Below, piece by piece: positions 34,471-41,720 of a stretch of 64,000 nucleotides of DNA. The position numbers were made by a program, and so were the translations under genes. Source of the DNA: Macrococcus sp. 19Msa1099. Its GTDB lineage: Bacteria; Bacillota; Bacilli; Staphylococcales; Staphylococcaceae. Location: the NCBI GenBank assembly GCA_019357535.2, contig CP079955.1, positions 1 through 64,000 of the forward strand. The letters run 5' to 3'. The notes under the pieces were generated by a model. That model made no database searches. It was given only the letters and a program-made list of their open reading frames with translations, and had not been told where the DNA came from. The first letter of the stretch is position 1, and the number at the start of each line of letters is the position of its first letter.

Positions 34471-35019
34471 TTACTCTAAGTTTGCATGATTATTCTGCAT
34501 TGTTTCTTCATCAACATTTAGGGATTCTTGAATCGTTAACACGATACTGTCTAAATAGATTTGACTGCTTTGCTCAAAGAGACTCCCTAAAGGTTGTTTT
34601 GAACCTTCTGCATCGTATTTTGTACCAGCAGGTAATACGATGGTTAAGTCTGCAATATCAGCAATTGGTGATTCGTCTTTTGTTGATAATAATAATACAT
34701 ATGCTTCATTATCTTTCGCTGTTTGTGCGAGCAATTTTAAATGAGCTGTAGATCCTGAACCTGATGCTATAACAAAGACATCATTTTTCTGGATTGATGG
34801 TGTAGTTGTTTCACCCACGACATAAGCTTTTTTGCCTAATTGATTTAATCTCATGGCAAAGCTCTTAATGACAAGACCTGAACGGCCTTTACCAGCTACA
34901 AATATTGATGATGCATCCATAAGATCTTTTGAAAATTTCTCTGATTCTGCTACATCAACATTTGACAATGTCTGCTTTATTTCATTTAAAATTAATTCAA
35001 AGTGATTATGCATGTGCAT
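34471..35019 (-). CDS. hxlB: 6-phospho-3-hexuloisomerase
   Basis: HxlB isomerises 3-hexulose-6-phosphate to fructose-6-phosphate, the second step of formaldehyde fixation by the ribulose monophosphate pathway. The protein is about 182 aa with a SIS domain: FVAGKGRSGLVIKSFAMRLNQLG and VIASGSGSTAHLKLLAQTAK, then the C-terminal SLFEQSSQIYLDS. Start is uncertain between ATG 35019 and ATG 35013; both overlap the 3' end of hxlA, so it is translationally coupled to it. The pair detoxifies formaldehyde; methanol growth is not implied. Confidence 0.9.
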   Translation of the reverse strand: MHMHNHFELILNEIKQTLSNVDVAESEKFSKDLMDASSIFVAGKGRSGLVIKSFAMRLNQLGKKAYVVGETTTPSIQKNDVFVIASGSGSTAHLKLLAQTAKDNEAYVLLLSTKDESPIADIADLTIVLPAGTKYDAEGSKQPLGSLFEQSSQIYLDSIVLTIQESLNVDEETMQNNHANLE

Positions 35020-35641
35020 CAACGATTTCACGACATTTTTTAGCAGCAGCTTTTGGATCATCAGCATTTGCGATACCGCCACCTACGATAATTAGGTCAG
35101 GTTTTTCGGCTGCTACTGTTTCGATTGTATCAGGTTTAATACCTCCAGCTACAGCTACTTTAGAATTTGAAATCACTGATTTCACAGTACGTAAACTTTC
35201 TAAAGGTGATACACCTTCAGCTTGTAAATCATATCCAGTGTGAACTGCGATATAATCAGCACCCATTTTATCTAATTCAGCTGCGCGCTGTTCTAAATTT
35301 TGAACTGCGATCATATCAACTAATAGTTCTTTACCGTGTTTGTGTGCTTCTTCAATAGCGCTTTTGATTGAAGCATCTTCAGCCACTCCTAAGATTGTTA
35401 CGATATCAGCACCAAACTTTATCGCTTGGCTTACTTCATATCCAGCAGCATCCATAATTTTTAAGTCTGCTAATACTTGTGTGTTATTAACTGATTTACT
35501 CATATGTTCAACGGCAGATAGCCCTTCGTTTATAACAATAGGTGTTCCAATTTCTACGATATCAATATATTCTTCTACTTCTTGTGCTAGCTTCGCTGCC
35601 TCTACTTGATCTAATAAATCGATTGCTAATTGTAATTTCAT
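35006..35641 (-). CDS. hxlA: 3-hexulose-6-phosphate synthase
   Basis: HxlA condenses formaldehyde with ribulose-5-phosphate. The 211-aa single-domain TIM barrel of the OMP-decarboxylase superfamily has the catalytic strand motif LADLKIMDAAGYE, the KFGADIVTILG segment and the phosphate-binding AVAGGIKPDTIE. The start ATG follows GAGAGGGGAAA. It is divergent from hxlR, the usual formaldehyde-responsive activator. With hxlB it forms a two-gene operon. Confidence 0.94.
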   Translation of the reverse strand: MKLQLAIDLLDQVEAAKLAQEVEEYIDIVEIGTPIVINEGLSAVEHMSKSVNNTQVLADLKIMDAAGYEVSQAIKFGADIVTILGVAEDASIKSAIEEAHKHGKELLVDMIAVQNLEQRAAELDKMGADYIAVHTGYDLQAEGVSPLESLRTVKSVISNSKVAVAGGIKPDTIETVAAEKPDLIIVGGGIANADDPKAAAKKCREIVDAHA

Positions 35642-35673
35642 AATAATTTCCCCTCTCTATCTTTTATGTACCC

Positions 35674-35720
35674 ATTATGGTATTATTTAAACAAAAAAAC
35701 AATACTGACATTTTAGTCAC
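35674..35720 (-). promoter_or_regulatory. hxlAB promoter and possible HxlR operator
   Basis: On the minus strand TTGTTT (35697-35702), 17 bp and CATAAT (35674-35679) precede hxlA. Immediately upstream of the -35 is the palindrome TGAC-N6-GTCA (35706-35719), placed as expected for an activator such as HxlR. The assignment is by position only. Confidence 0.4.
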
Positions 35721-35743
35721 TATAAATAAATGGAGGGTTTAAA

Positions 35744-36103
35744 TTGTTAATTGAATATAATAATAAAGAATTTTATACATCGAAAGATTTGGCGTTATCT
35801 GTAATTGGAGGTAGATGGAAAATTGCAATCATCTATCATCTTTTGCATGAGGACAGATTAAGATTAAGTGAGTTACAAAATAAACTTCCTGATATCAATC
35901 AGCGTATGTTAATCAGACAACTTCGCGAGCTGGAACAAGACAAAATCATTGAAAGAACAGTGTACCCAGTAGTGCCTCCTAAGGTAGATTACAAATTGAC
36001 AGAAATAGGGTTGAAACTTGATGGAGTAGTTTTTTCGATTTGTAATTGGGGAGATGAGTTTTTGCAGGTGATTAAAGGTGATAATCATAATAAGATAACA
36101 TAG
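35744..36103 (+). CDS. hxlR: HxlR-family transcriptional regulator
   Basis: This 119-aa winged-helix protein has the HxlR core: SVIGGRWKIAIIYHLL, then RLRLSELQNKLPDINQRMLIRQLRELE and the wing VPPKVDYKLTEIG. It starts at TTG 35744, with GGAGGG 7-12 bases upstream. Divergent placement next to hxlAB strongly suggests that it activates the operon in response to formaldehyde, as in B. subtilis. No sensing cysteine is near the start; a single Cys lies near residue 107 (SICNWGDE). Confidence 0.9.
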   Translation: MLIEYNNKEFYTSKDLALSVIGGRWKIAIIYHLLHEDRLRLSELQNKLPDINQRMLIRQLRELEQDKIIERTVYPVVPPKVDYKLTEIGLKLDGVVFSICNWGDEFLQVIKGDNHNKIT

Positions 36104-36468
36104 TGCTGCGTCGTTTAAAGATTTCTCGGAATTATAGTATAACTGGATAGGCATTAGGTATATATCGTATATGTATTTTTGAAATCAATTGTAGCAATCT
36201 ATATAAGAAAAGAAGTAAGATGGAAAGATCGTAATATAAAACTAAAAAAACTGAAGCTAGGTTTTCAAAAAGAGTGAAATATATCAATTTATTGAACTCA
36301 TATTCAAAATTTATTTTATAGCACAATTAAATAGTAGATAAAGTACGAATAGATTTATTTATTGCAGAAAAATATAATCAAACTAACATTAATTCAATAA
36401 TAATTAAAAAGAGAATGAAGATGAAATTATTCATCTTCATTCTCTTTAAATATGTTTAGCAATGTCTA
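36104..36468. other. Intergenic region between hxlR and the surface-protein gene
   Basis: This 365-bp A/T-rich stretch contains the terminator of the convergent surface-protein gene (36408-36447). I saw no supported reading frame, RNA gene or repeat in the rest; a 64-codon minus frame at 36132-36326 lacks a ribosome site and looks random. Confidence 0.6.
36405..36450 (-). terminator. Terminator of the surface-protein gene
   Basis: A perfect 18-bp stem AAAGAGAATGAAGATGAA / TTCATCTTCATTCTCTTT (36408-36425, 36430-36447) lies 20 bp past the stop, with a T-rich tail on the minus strand. Confidence 0.88.
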
Positions 36469-37779
36469 TTATTTAAAACGTCTTGAGAATGCTAATAAGC
36501 TTAATCCGATAGCAGAGAAAAGTCCACCGAATAAAGTAGCGTTATTTGATTCTCCTGTATCAGGTAAGGTTTTAACATTTGTAGTTTGAGCAGCTTCAGT
36601 TTGAGCAGCTTCAGTTTGAGCAGCTTCAGTTTGAGCAGCTTCAGTTTGAGCAGCTTCAGTTTGAGCAGCTTCAGTTTGAGCAGCTTCAGTTTGAGCAGCT
36701 TCAGTTTGAACAGCTTCAGTTTGAACGGCTTCAGTTTGAACAGCTTCAGTTTGAACGGCTTCAGTTTGAACAGCTTCAGTTTGAACGGCTTCAGTTTGAA
36801 CAGCTTCAGTTTGAACGGCTTCAGTTTGAACGGTTTCAGTTTGAACAGCTTCAGTTTGAGTGCCTTCAGTTTGAGTGCCTTCAGTTTGAGAATTTAAAGC
36901 TTCATTAGCAGCATTTTCCCAAGCATCAGCGTGAGCATCTTCAGCGTCTTTACCTTCTTGAGCAGTAGGTGTATCAGTTTGAGGACTTAAAGCTTCATTA
37001 GCAGCATTTTCCCAAGCATCAGCGTGAGCATCTTCAGCGTCTTTACCTTCTTGAGCAGTAGGTGTATCAGTTTGAGGACTTAAAGCTTCGTTAGCAGCAT
37101 TTTCCCAAGCATCAGCGTGAGCATCTTCAGCGTCTTTACCTTCTTGAGCAGTAGGTGTATCAGTTTGAGGACTTAAAGCTTCGTTAGCAGCATTTTCCCA
37201 AGCATCAGCCTGAGCGTCTTCAGCGTCTTTACCTTCTTGAGCAGTAGGTGTATCAGTTTGAGGATTTAAAGCTTCGTTAGCAGCATTTTCCCAAGCATCA
37301 GCCTGAGCGTCTTCAGCGTCTTTACCTTCTTGAGCAGTAGGTGTATCAGTTTGAGGATTTAAAGCTTCGTTAGCAGCATTTTCCCAAGCATCAGCCTGAG
37401 CGTCTTCAGCGTCTTTACCTTCTTGAGCAGTAGGTGTATCAGTTTGAGGATTTAAAGCTTCGTTAGCAGCATTTTCCCAAGCATCAGCCTGAGCGTCTTC
37501 AGCGTCTTTACCTTCTTGAGCAGTAGGTGTATCAGTTTGAGGATTTAAAGCTTCGTTAGCAGCATTTTCCCAAGCATCAGCCTGAGCGTTTTCAGCAGCA
37601 GCACTCCATTGATCAGCTTGATAAGCTTCGACAGCGTCAGCTTGATAAGCACTTTGTGTAGAATCGTCAAGTCCTTGAGTTTCAGCAGCATCAGCTGGTG
37701 CGCCGAGCCCAAGCATTAAAGTAGCGGTTGTTGCAGCAACACCAAAAGCAAGTTTTTGATTGTAAGTCGTTTTTTTCAT
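36469..37779 (-). CDS. LPXTG-anchored surface protein made of two tandem-repeat arrays
   Basis: This 436-aa sortase substrate is of unknown function. A signal peptide (MKKTTYNQKL start, hydrophobic core to about residue 28, cleavage near ADA-A at 29-32) lacks a YSIRK motif. A short linker follows. Seven 31-residue repeats (65-281) then appear, each starting A[QH]ADAWENAANEAL with a QTDTPTAQEGKDAED tail, plus a partial eighth. About twenty 5-residue repeats of [AGT][VAT]QTE type follow (297-398). The sorting signal is LPDTG (405-409), a hydrophobic helix and RRFK. The ATG at 37779 follows GGAGG. The composition (Ala, Glu, Gln, Asp, Thr) is acidic and low-complexity. No adhesin domain is recognised; the first array may be helical and the second a wall-spanning stalk. 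Confidence 0.9.
   Translation of the reverse strand: MKKTTYNQKLAFGVAATTATLMLGLGAPADAAETQGLDDSTQSAYQADAVEAYQADQWSAAAENAQADAWENAANEALNPQTDTPTAQEGKDAEDAQADAWENAANEALNPQTDTPTAQEGKDAEDAQADAWENAANEALNPQTDTPTAQEGKDAEDAQADAWENAANEALNPQTDTPTAQEGKDAEDAQADAWENAANEALSPQTDTPTAQEGKDAEDAHADAWENAANEALSPQTDTPTAQEGKDAEDAHADAWENAANEALSPQTDTPTAQEGKDAEDAHADAWENAANEALNSQTEGTQTEGTQTEAVQTETVQTEAVQTEAVQTEAVQTEAVQTEAVQTEAVQTEAVQTEAVQTEAAQTEAAQTEAAQTEAAQTEAAQTEAAQTEAAQTEAAQTTNVKTLPDTGESNNATLFGGLFSAIGLSLLAFSRRFK
36586..36891 (-). repeat. 15-bp tandem repeats (coding, about 20 units)
   Basis: This region of the surface-protein gene consists of nearly identical 15-bp units encoding AVQTE or AAQTE. The AAQTE units form a homogeneous block at the 3' side and the AVQTE units the other block, with two GTQTE and one TVQTE at the proximal edge. 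Blockwise homogeneity suggests recent slippage expansion. Confidence 0.95.
36937..37587 (-). repeat. 93-bp tandem repeats (coding, seven full units)
   Basis: Seven consecutive 93-bp units encode the 31-residue repeat; a partial eighth extends to about 36892. Units 1-4 (from the N-terminus) carry the LNPQTD variant, units 5-7 LSPQTD. From unit 6 onward the first residues change from AQAD to AHAD, giving a gradient of variants along the array. Confidence 0.95.
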
Positions 37780-38060
37780 ATTATTATCCTCCATTTAGTG
37801 AAATTTTAAATCTACAGAAATTATATATTAAGTAAAAAAAAAATCTACACATTTATGGAAATTATCAAAATATTATCAAATATATTATAAATGATAAAAT
37901 AACCTTATATTTATTTACATATAAGGTCCAAAGCATAAGTGCATTATTCATTATTATTCTTTAAAACATGCTCGGTTCTGTTAATCATAGATATTATCAA
38001 TATCTATAAATGACTTTAACTTAAATTAGCACCAACAGTTGTAAGATATTAATATCCTTT

Positions 38061-38356
38061 TCACTCAGTCATATACCAGAAGGCTTCAGAGCCTTTCGTC
38101 ATTCGTGCACTAAATGGATAGATAAATAGATCAGACTTTCCAATCAAAGGTTCTATTTCTCTCTTCCAGCGTTCAGTATTACCAACTATTTCTTGATATG
38201 TACTGTTAGTAAAGTTGATATGACCATAGGAATGACTTACAAAGATCCATCCGTTACGTTTTAGGCATCTACAACCTTCGTTGCTTGTGCTCCGTATCTT
38301 TTCAACACCTTACTTTTTAGATTATTTGTTCGGTATCCTAATATTCTTTCGAACAT
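38061..38356 (-). pseudogene. Polysaccharide deacetylase fragment (frameshifted)
   Basis: Reading the minus strand from 38356, FERILGYRTNN...YGAQATKVVDA runs into a stop. A one-base shift near 38270 restores LKRNGWIFVSHSYGHINF and a segment ending IYPFSARMTKGSEAFWYM before TGA at 38061. HSYGHINF and the W-K-x3-EP-LIG block match the polysaccharide deacetylase-type family in Firmicutes (S/T-H-x-x-x-H metal motif). The N-terminal half is missing; a decayed IS3-type sequence abuts it. It is a remnant, not a functional gene. Confidence 0.65.
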
Positions 38357-38830
38357 ACATCGAAAATTACGGATAGATATAGCTTAGTTCCATTTTAATG
38401 TTGAATTGTGTCACATCAGTAAGTATTTTTGATATGGTCGATTTGTTATGAATCTAAGATTCAATTTATTCTTGGCAGTTTTACCAACTTTCCCTTTGTA
38501 TGAATTATATGTTCTATATTATTTTTCATATTTTCAGAGACACGACCTTTTTGTTTTGATTCTAAATCTAGAATAACATATTGATTATATTTCATCTGTT
38601 GAATATCTCTTTCTTGTCATACACGAAACTAGACCCTCAATAGGTATCAAATGATAAACCCGTGTTCTTAATAATGAATATTGACTATCATATATACTAC
38701 TCAATGAATTATAGCCAATTTTTCTTTCTTTATATTCTTTGATAATTTTCAATTTAAAATCAAGTTCATGCTTTTTATTCAAAATAAACACCCCTAAAGT
38801 TAAATTTTAAGATTTAACTTTAAGGGTGCA
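38357..38830 (-). mobile_element. Decayed IS3-family element (IS150-like) remnant
   Basis: On the minus strand an orfA-like start (38791 to 38585: KHELDFKLKIIKEYKERKIGY) resembles the helix-turn-helix of IS3/IS150 OrfA and is frame-broken after about 50 residues. Further on, GKVGKTAKNKLN and RPYQKILTDVTQFNIK match the N-terminal part of the OrfB integrase, just before its catalytic core, split by frame changes. The outer end carries the palindrome CTAAAGTTAAA/TTTAACTTTAAG and terminal TGCACCC (38824-38830). The catalytic DDE region is gone, so the element is inactive. Confidence 0.7.
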
Positions 38831-39025
38831 CTTCATTTCTATAAGTCTTTTGCATTTTTTCATACTTTCAGGGTATAAAATCTTGAATAAGAAAGATGGC
38901 TGTTTTCTTTTAGGATTGGTTACTTAACTTATAAAATTTAGTCAATAAATCCTTTAGTATAAATGTACTATATATAAGTACTAGAAAGATTAAAAGTAGA
39001 TTACTATTATGATAGGAGTTTTGCT

Positions 39026-39418
39026 ATGTTATTTAAAGGGATAGTTTCAGGATTAGCATTATACATTGTATTAGTGGCACTAGATATCCTATTTAAGACG
39101 AATACCGAGCGATTGCTATTGAATATCGATTTTATAACGGGTCAAGCGACCTCGCCGTTTTTACTGGAGGTCACATTACATCTGCTCGTAAGTATTATAT
39201 TATATTTTAGTTTATCGCGATTGTTTCGTTATAAGGGTTTGTATATTGCAGCTTATATCGTTTTATTTGTAGTATTTATTGGATTATTCTTTATACTGTC
39301 ACACCTATCGCTAACAATGCACTATGATCTTACTATAAAGCTGATGTTTGTATGGTTATTAGGTCATACCTTCTATTTATTCATAGTTCATCTAATGATT
39401 AAACATGCTTATAGTTAG
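39026..39418 (+). CDS. Small four-segment membrane protein, function unknown
   Basis: This 130-aa protein has about four hydrophobic segments (roughly residues 4-22, 44-64, 72-92 and 105-127). I do not recognise a family. ATAGGAG lies before ATG 39026. The next gene, a UvrA-like ABC ATPase, starts 40 bp downstream, so the pair may be cotranscribed and the membrane protein might belong to the same resistance or stress function; this is only positional. Confidence 0.6.
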   Translation: MLFKGIVSGLALYIVLVALDILFKTNTERLLLNIDFITGQATSPFLLEVTLHLLVSIILYFSLSRLFRYKGLYIAAYIVLFVVFIGLFFILSHLSLTMHYDLTIKLMFVWLLGHTFYLFIVHLMIKHAYS

Positions 39419-39458
39419 AGTGAAATAGGGTATATTAACAAAAGTGAGGAGTGATTCA

Positions 39459-41720
39459 ATGAAACCTATAAAGATTATTGGAGCAAAGCAGAATAATTTA
39501 AAAGATATATCACTGGAGATACCGAAACACCAGCTGACTGTCTTTACAGGGCGTTCGGGTTCTGGGAAGTCATCGCTAGTATTTAATACGATTGCCGCGG
39601 AGAGTGAGCGACTATTGAATGAAACATATAGTACTTATATACAGAACCAACTCAACCATTATGATAAGCCTGTTGTCGACCGTATTGAGAATTTGCCTGT
39701 ATCAATGGTCATTGGACAAGATAGAATTGGTGGGAATTCAAGATCAACTGTAGGAACAATTTCAGATATCTATTCTGGTGTGAGATTATTGTGGTCACGT
39801 ATTGGACAGCCATTTGTAGGATATTCTATGGACTTTTCTTTTAACAATACGAATGGCATGTGCAAAACGTGTGATGGATTAGGTTATGTAGAAGATATTG
39901 ACTTAAATGAGTTATTACATTTCGATCGTTCATTAAATGAAGATGCGATCAAATTCCCCTCTTTTGCTCCAAATACTTGGCGTGGTAAACGGTATTTAAA
40001 TACGGGATTATTTGACAATGATAAGAAATTGAAAGACTATTCTAAAGAAGAGATGGATACACTTTTGTATCAAGAACCTATTAAATTAAAAAATCCTCCA
40101 TCAAACTGGCCGAAGACGGCTAAATATGAAGGGTTAATTTATCGATTTAGAAGATCTTTTCTAATCAACGATACATTTGAAAAGAAGAAGTTTATTAAAG
40201 ACGTAAATCGTATCGTCACAAAACAAGTGTGCCCAGATTGCGAAGGTAAACGTCTGAATGACAAGATATTAAGTTGCAAAATAGATGGATTAAATATTGC
40301 TGAATTTTGTGATCTAACAGTAGATGATGAGATTAAGTTTTTGAATAAAATTAATGATGATAAAGCACAGTATATTATTGAACCTTTAGTCAAACAATTA
40401 GAAGCATTAAAACGAATTGGCTTAGGTTATTTGACATTAAGTCGAGAAACGACAACTTTATCAGGGGGAGAGTCTCAAAGGATCAAATTGATTCGTCATT
40501 TAAATAGTCCGCTTACGGATTTAGTCTATATTATTGATGAACCGAGTATTGGTCTACATCCTGAAGATATAGAAAATATTAATCAAATCATGCTTTCAAT
40601 TCGCGATAAAGGTAATACAGTGCTTGTTGTTGAGCATGATCCTGATGTAATTAAGATTGCGGATTATTGTGTTGATATAGGTCCGGGAAGTGGTAAGCGT
40701 GGAGGAGAGATTATATTTACTGGGAAATATAATGAATTACTTAAGAGTAATAGTCCAACAGGTAAGGCGCTATCACAACCACATGCTTTTAAAGAGGAAG
40801 TAAGGGTATCAAATGATTATATAGCACTAAAAAATATTACGAAGAATAACTTAAAAGATGTATCGGTTAATATTCCTGAACATGTGTTAACTGCTGTAAC
40901 AGGTGTTGCAGGTTCAGGTAAAAGTACGTTAATACAAACAGGACTTCGCGAAAGAGAAGATGTAGTTTATATCGATCAGAAACCTGTACATGCGACGAAT
41001 CGTTCAAATCTACTGACCTACCTTGATATCTTTGATGATATTAGAGGATACTATAGCAAAGAGACAGGTCTTAAAAAAGGGATGTTCAGCTACAACTCAG
41101 AAGGTGCATGTCCAAACTGCAATGGAAAAGGCGTAATAAAAACGGAGCTTGCATTTATGTCTGACTTTGTTCAACAATGTGAAGTATGTCATGGTAAACG
41201 TTATCGACCAGAAGTATTGGAAGCAAAAGTAAAAGGATACTCTATCGCAGACATGCTTGAGCTTTCTGTAGAAGAAGCAATCGATTTCTTTCAGATAGAC
41301 AACGTTAATCAAGTGTTGAAGAGTGTAAAGCGTACAGGACTTGACTATATGACCTTAGGACAGTCATTAGATACTTTATCAGGTGGGGAGAGTCAGCGAG
41401 TAAAACTTAGTCGATATATTAACGAGGGTGTGAAAGATAAGATATTTATCTTTGATGAACCTACGACAGGTTTACATGAAGCAGATATAGATAATTTAAA
41501 ACGCATCTTTGATTATTTAATTGATGAAGATAATACGGTGATTGTGATAGAACATAATTTGACAATGATGACTTATGCAGATTGGATTATAGACATTGGA
41601 CCTCGTGCAGGATTAGGCGGAGGTAAAGTACTCTATAGTGGGGTGCCGAAGGAAATTGTCCATGAAGAAACATCATTAACTGGCAAACATTTATTGAAAT
41701 ATATTGATGATAGCAATTAA
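39459..41720 (+). CDS. UvrA-like ABC ATPase (short UvrA paralogue)
   Basis: This 753-aa soluble protein has two ABC ATPase modules of the UvrA type: Walker A GRSGSGKSS near residue 36 and GVAGSGKST in the second half, and two LSGGESQR signatures. The zinc modules have Cys pairs (CKTCDGLGY, CPDCEGKRL, CPNCNGKGV, CEVCHGKRY). It is about 190 residues shorter than housekeeping UvrA and corresponds to the UvrA2/DrrC-like paralogues that lack the full UvrB-binding insertion. Such proteins give tolerance to DNA-binding drugs in some actinobacteria; the role here is unknown. GTGAGGAG precedes ATG 39459. Confidence 0.88.
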   Translation: MKPIKIIGAKQNNLKDISLEIPKHQLTVFTGRSGSGKSSLVFNTIAAESERLLNETYSTYIQNQLNHYDKPVVDRIENLPVSMVIGQDRIGGNSRSTVGTISDIYSGVRLLWSRIGQPFVGYSMDFSFNNTNGMCKTCDGLGYVEDIDLNELLHFDRSLNEDAIKFPSFAPNTWRGKRYLNTGLFDNDKKLKDYSKEEMDTLLYQEPIKLKNPPSNWPKTAKYEGLIYRFRRSFLINDTFEKKKFIKDVNRIVTKQVCPDCEGKRLNDKILSCKIDGLNIAEFCDLTVDDEIKFLNKINDDKAQYIIEPLVKQLEALKRIGLGYLTLSRETTTLSGGESQRIKLIRHLNSPLTDLVYIIDEPSIGLHPEDIENINQIMLSIRDKGNTVLVVEHDPDVIKIADYCVDIGPGSGKRGGEIIFTGKYNELLKSNSPTGKALSQPHAFKEEVRVSNDYIALKNITKNNLKDVSVNIPEHVLTAVTGVAGSGKSTLIQTGLREREDVVYIDQKPVHATNRSNLLTYLDIFDDIRGYYSKETGLKKGMFSYNSEGACPNCNGKGVIKTELAFMSDFVQQCEVCHGKRYRPEVLEAKVKGYSIADMLELSVEEAIDFFQIDNVNQVLKSVKRTGLDYMTLGQSLDTLSGGESQRVKLSRYINEGVKDKIFIFDEPTTGLHEADIDNLKRIFDYLIDEDNTVIVIEHNLTMMTYADWIIDIGPRAGLGGGKVLYSGVPKEIVHEETSLTGKHLLKYIDDSN

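Follow-up and report, generated by a model that had tools for sequence, protein, structure and literature searches.

Known architectures of anchored repeat proteins

Surface proteins are usually taken to consist of an adhesin head and a stalk. The Clf-Sdr (MSCRAMM) adhesins bind their ligands with N-terminal IgG-like domains, and they carry a signal peptide, an acidic low-complexity stalk and an LPXTG anchor. The Periscope Proteins (SasG, Rib and Sgo_0707) are sortase-anchored and have long tandem repeats that are near-identical at the DNA level, for which changes in copy number are expected; an N-terminal functional domain is projected by a stalk of folded repeat domains of about 50–165 residues (PMC8201768, PMC9704523). 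Staphylocoagulase is secreted and has no LPXTG anchor. Its C-terminal repeats are short tandem flexible units, reported as disordered, that bind fibrinogen fragment D at several sites (PMC8761706).

In the protein described here, the repeat itself is the sole candidate for the working part. It is a module that recurs in several architectures in two bacterial orders, with a copy number of one to seven.

The gene and its export and anchor signals

The window, that is, the whole 64 kb stretch of DNA that was analysed, encodes this protein on its minus strand (Table 1). Inspection points to an N-terminal signal peptide as in sortase-anchored proteins, and the first 33 residues agree at 19 of 33 positions with the signal region of gene 1 of a Staphylococcus relative (G034). 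At the other end, the LPXTG-type motif, the hydrophobic segment and the basic tail are all present. Both anchor models match above their cut-offs (Gram_pos_anchor, PF00746, 31.5 bits against 20; LPXTG domain, TIGR01167, 21.3 bits against 15.9), and the anchor is related to that of G034 gene 2 (16/28). The genome has four sortase genes over the PF04203 cut-off and six anchor-domain genes. Elsewhere in it (G000:C1:356942-360176), two LPXTG-anchor frames are grouped with two sortase frames, likely a pilus-type cluster. The mature part of the window protein contains 86 acidic and only 8 basic residues.

Table 1. Features of the repeat gene and its immediate flanks.
Feature	Position	Strand	Basis
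Whole CDS, LPDTG-anchored repeat protein, 436 aa	36469..37779	-	Sequence; Gram_pos_anchor over cut-off
Ribosome-binding site GGAGG, 8 nt before ATG at 37779	37788..37792	-	Sequence
Signal peptide, residues 1-31, cleaved between ADA and A	37687..37779	-	Putative cleavage site, by inspection
Short N-terminal segment, residues 33-65, degenerate YQAD.. repeats	37585..37683	-	In one predicted helix of 40 residues that continues into unit 1
Seven full 31-residue units, residues 66-282, core DTPTAQEGKDAEDA(H/Q)ADAWENAANEAL	36934..37584	-	TRF, sequence
Half-length eighth unit, residues 283-297	36889..36933	-	Sequence
Twenty QTExx pentapeptides, residues 298-397, probable wall-spanning stalk	36589..36888	-	TTEAP-type stalks alike in the same genus
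LPDTG sorting motif, residues 405-409	36553..36567	-	Sequence; Pfam and NCBIfam anchor matches
Membrane-spanning segment and positively charged tail (to ...SRRFK)	36472..36540	-	Sequence; Pfam
Perfect 18-bp inverted repeat directly past the stop codon, bidirectional terminator-like	36408..36447	.	Sequence

Promoter matches around the gene were not above chance, and Rfam gave no match there. An open reading frame on the plus strand (36586-36897) was rejected as a gene: it is the antisense of the 15-nt repeats and stays open because the repeat period is divisible by three. We take the QTExx block to be a variant of the Thr-Glu pentapeptide stalk type that is common in the genus. Stretches of APTTE and AATTE are frequent in the large surface proteins of these species, including one in the same genome.

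The gene lies at a site, flanked by hxlR and an excinuclease-like ABC gene, whose content varies within the genus (35006-41720; L093-L096). In other species of the genus, this gap is occupied by a set of carotenoid-type genes (G004) or by an alcohol-dehydrogenase-like gene with others (G001), or consists of a short spacer only (G008). A remnant of a polysaccharide deacetylase adjoins the repeat gene (38061-38309, minus strand), an open stretch of 82 aa with PF01522 at the cut-off, and broken reading frames up to 38806, which match no family, may be transposase debris. The hexulose-phosphate-synthase-like protein at 35006-35641 (L088-L092) shows about 100% identity to its counterparts in four other species of the genus and 98% to that in a fifth, while the nearby excinuclease-like protein is 67–96% identical in those species. 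Three species of the genus do not have the hexulose-phosphate-synthase-like protein.

The repeat arrays and the search for known families

TRF scored the 31-residue array at 1341 and the pentapeptides at 462, compared with maxima of 40–62 in ten dinucleotide shuffles of the whole 64 kb. Units 1–4 have the same DNA sequence, and differences among the seven full units amount to 0–4 of 93 nt. A preliminary description of this DNA had reported seven near-identical 31-residue repeats and about twenty pentapeptides followed by LPDTG, had called them very uniform at the DNA level and had found no known adhesin domain. All of this is borne out here. The half-length eighth unit and the minus strand had gone unmentioned, and the figure of 320 of 436 residues given for the repeats becomes about 332 when the partial unit is counted.

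The unit variants are graded along the array (Q to H, N to S, GAC to GAT, AAC to AAT), and in the QTEAV block two codon forms largely alternate, giving a higher-order period of 30 nt. Both patterns look like traces of repeated duplication. It is conceivable that recombination between near-identical units also changes the copy number in the window species.

No entry in Pfam, NCBIfam, PHROG or the PDB sequences covers the 31-residue unit, and the relatives of the protein yielded nothing over the unit in Pfam or NCBIfam. The PDB sequence search returned no solved structure for the unit and no homologue with known function, and the sequence letters of the unit were not found in the literature searched. 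Three kinds of match were rejected upon inspection. The hit to the MtaB methanol-cobalamin methyltransferase (PF12176) is an artefact of the repeats, because the best stretch covers 23 of 460 model positions, lies over repeated stretches and is absent from all seven relatives; the full-length enzyme domain is not there. A PDB match, to collagen VI alpha 3, is confined to the low-complexity pentapeptides. The NCBIfam Sdr/Clf matches to relatives are far under the cut-off and fall on low-complexity, stalk and anchor regions.

Distribution of the unit

Relatives were found with profiles of the unit, A2 and A3. By profile search, the unit is present in 4 of the 108 Staphylococcaceae genomes, one of these being among the nine from the window's genus, and in 4 of the 29 that represent the Vagococcus family. 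No further genus appeared among 399 genomes of the class, 395 of the Vagococcus order and 398 of the phylum, so the profile rarely gives false matches. The phage, plasmid and viral (IMG/VR) collections did not contain the unit.

Altogether, the unit occurs in six architectures, with one to seven copies of 28–32 residues. Its length and number are thus free while the core is held. The unit-bearing proteins of S. coagulans, other Staphylococcus and Vagococcus (L042-L045, L049, L050, L073, L074) have 15–21 of 23 core residues identical. Most of them are also LPXTG-type, and their neighbouring regions and loci differ. Going by these sequence matches, the unit is a dispersed family in other genera, which the preliminary description had missed, as it had the kinship of the pentapeptides with the stalk type of the genus.

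The Staphylococcus relative G034 has two adjacent unit genes, the second of which is LPETG-anchored. Gene 1 (L045 5627-6820) combines the unit with a window-like signal peptide and has no LPXTG; its C-terminal region is helical-looking without a family match, and the protein may be secreted or retained in some other way. In S. coagulans and a near relative (G109), a long N-terminal region rich in His precedes 4 and 7 units, respectively, each 28 residues long. The G109 protein (L044 2184-4679) ends without LPXTG, whereas LPETG and a membrane segment form the end of the protein that S. coagulans has at this locus (L043 4411-6768). V. bubulae carries the unit in two different proteins. The longer one has 5 units at a spacing of 32 residues after other repeats, and its frame starts near a contig end and may be cut. 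Small LPXTG-type proteins encoded upstream of a lacI-family regulator, at one conserved locus, have 3, 2 and 1 units in three Vagococcus species (one genome per species). In Vagococcus G226, an LPXTG-type protein of 715 aa built from a different helical-looking repeat (L049 1697-3844) is encoded close to a short unit-bearing protein.

Conservation of the core

The core of the window units is identical to that of V. bubulae at 21 of 23 residues, but matches the Staphylococcus cores at only 16–18. Eight of the 21 residues shared with V. bubulae are encoded by different codons (pS 0.55, pN 0.04, pN/pS 0.07). The median pN/pS was 0.22 for pairs involving the window and 0.32 over all 36 core pairs, 34 of which lay below 1. 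The pairs are a small, non-independent sample, and the ratio is biased downward because the homologues were found by protein similarity, so that these values support purifying selection on the core without amounting to a formal test. Its patchy occurrence, together with a core that is closer to that of another order, suggests that the unit has spread horizontally. Taken together, these comparisons speak for a module under constraint that has crossed between bacterial orders.

Predicted structure of the unit

AlphaFold2 was run on four units (14 alignment rows) and on residues 33-310 (8 rows). In both runs, most units formed one helix of 21–23 residues, joined by linkers of about 8–10 residues; the last helix extends longer than the others. 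Confidence was low (mean pLDDT 44 and 59, pTM 0.28 and 0.26), and no confident packing between helices was seen in these single-chain models. The models support a chain of separate helices, with alignments that are shallow. The earlier suggestion that the unit may be an undescribed fold is therefore not supported as far as a new globular fold is concerned, since each unit is modelled as an isolated low-confidence helix; given the shallow alignments, a compact fold formed with a ligand would still be compatible with the models.

Possible function of the array

We infer that the units are likely the working part of the protein, since no other domain was found with Pfam or NCBIfam and only about 33 residues precede them. 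The preliminary description had also proposed a ligand-binding unit, and here the conservation of the core across two orders argues for such a role by inference. The unit is probably a binding or display module that is spreading between species. Our preferred reading, which we give a little under an even chance, is a multivalent ligand-binding helical array on a flexible wall-spanning stalk. The signal peptide would export the protein, sortase would anchor it at LPDTG, and the pentapeptide Gln/Thr/Glu stalk would carry the array through the cell wall for display outside the cell. Each 31-residue unit would form an alpha-helix of ~22 residues, initiated by the DTP turn, with a flexible linker that contains Pro after it. 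In this helix, the conserved residues K..ED.H.DAWE would most likely make up a recurring site at which a host or environmental ligand binds. An array of such sites would allow multivalent, avidity-driven binding, and recombination between near-identical units may change their number. The placement of the unit in differing contexts is in favour of a binding module: it occurs in the G034 pair, in two proteins of V. bubulae and, in S. coagulans and its near relative, C-terminal to unrelated N-terminal regions.

The main rival, possible though somewhat unlikely, is that the units are a plain spacer or an acidic surface coat, in which case the array would lengthen the protein and its negative charge would repel or mask without a specific ligand. 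The S. coagulans protein and the long one of V. bubulae indeed have their units between a larger region and the wall, the position of a plain spacer. This speaks against binding, as do the low confidence of the models and the amphipathic character of the helix, which is uneven across members. The acidic, Ala-rich, low-complexity composition and the loose helices without a fold in the AlphaFold2 models fit a spacer or coat as well, and other adhesins can be masked by long repeat proteins, SasG and Pls among them (PMC8201768). However, there is no tip domain to project in the window protein, the small Vagococcus proteins or the product of G034 gene 2, and a pure spacer needs no DTP..K..ED.H.DAWE pattern that is conserved across two orders with diverged codons.

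Self-association, in which helices of neighbouring cells or molecules pair and drive aggregation or biofilm formation, seems improbable. Repeated helices are suited to pairing, and in a helical-wheel test the hydrophobic moment of the Ala/Trp face was above shuffles in the window and Vagococcus units (p 0.003-0.017). It was not above shuffles in the Staphylococcus units (p 0.17-0.61), so that amphipathicity is inconsistent across members; moreover, the strong negative charge disfavours pairing and the single-chain models show no packing. An array that arose as a by-product of repeat expansion, without a function under selection, would agree with an accessory gene found in one of nine genomes of the genus and with the strong homogenisation of the units, but this reading is very improbable in view of the intact frame, ribosome-binding site, signal peptide and anchor and of a core conserved with synonymous divergence in other genera.

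The ligand-binding array could have a broader counterpart, in which the DTP..EGK..EDAHADAWE unit is an undescribed, horizontally spread ligand-binding helical repeat common to Staphylococcaceae and Vagococcus surface proteins that on its own makes up an entire adhesin or immune-evasion protein whose valency can be adjusted. We consider this full proposal unlikely as it stands. If the unit does bind a ligand, it would be a small portable binding unit and a new repeat family for domain databases, and it would offer a convenient test of how valency evolves through repeat expansion. Should it serve only as a coat or spacer, the protein would be another ordinary LPXTG stalk.

Comparison with known systems

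The window protein shares with the Clf-Sdr adhesins the signal peptide, the LPXTG anchor and the acidic low-complexity stalk, but their IgG-like domains are absent: Pfam and NCBIfam gave no such match. With the Periscope Proteins it has in common the sortase anchor and the long, nearly identical tandem repeats. Their folded domains are lacking, as the 31-residue unit is not globular and is a single helix in low-confidence models, and so is a projected functional domain, as the short segment before the repeats matches none. We therefore do not class it as a Periscope Protein. The staphylocoagulase repeats differ in belonging to a secreted, unanchored protein and in their reported disorder, whereas the window units are predicted to be helical, and no sequence relationship was found between the two. 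In their short tandem units and flexible chain, they are nevertheless the nearest functional parallel to the array described here (PMC8761706).
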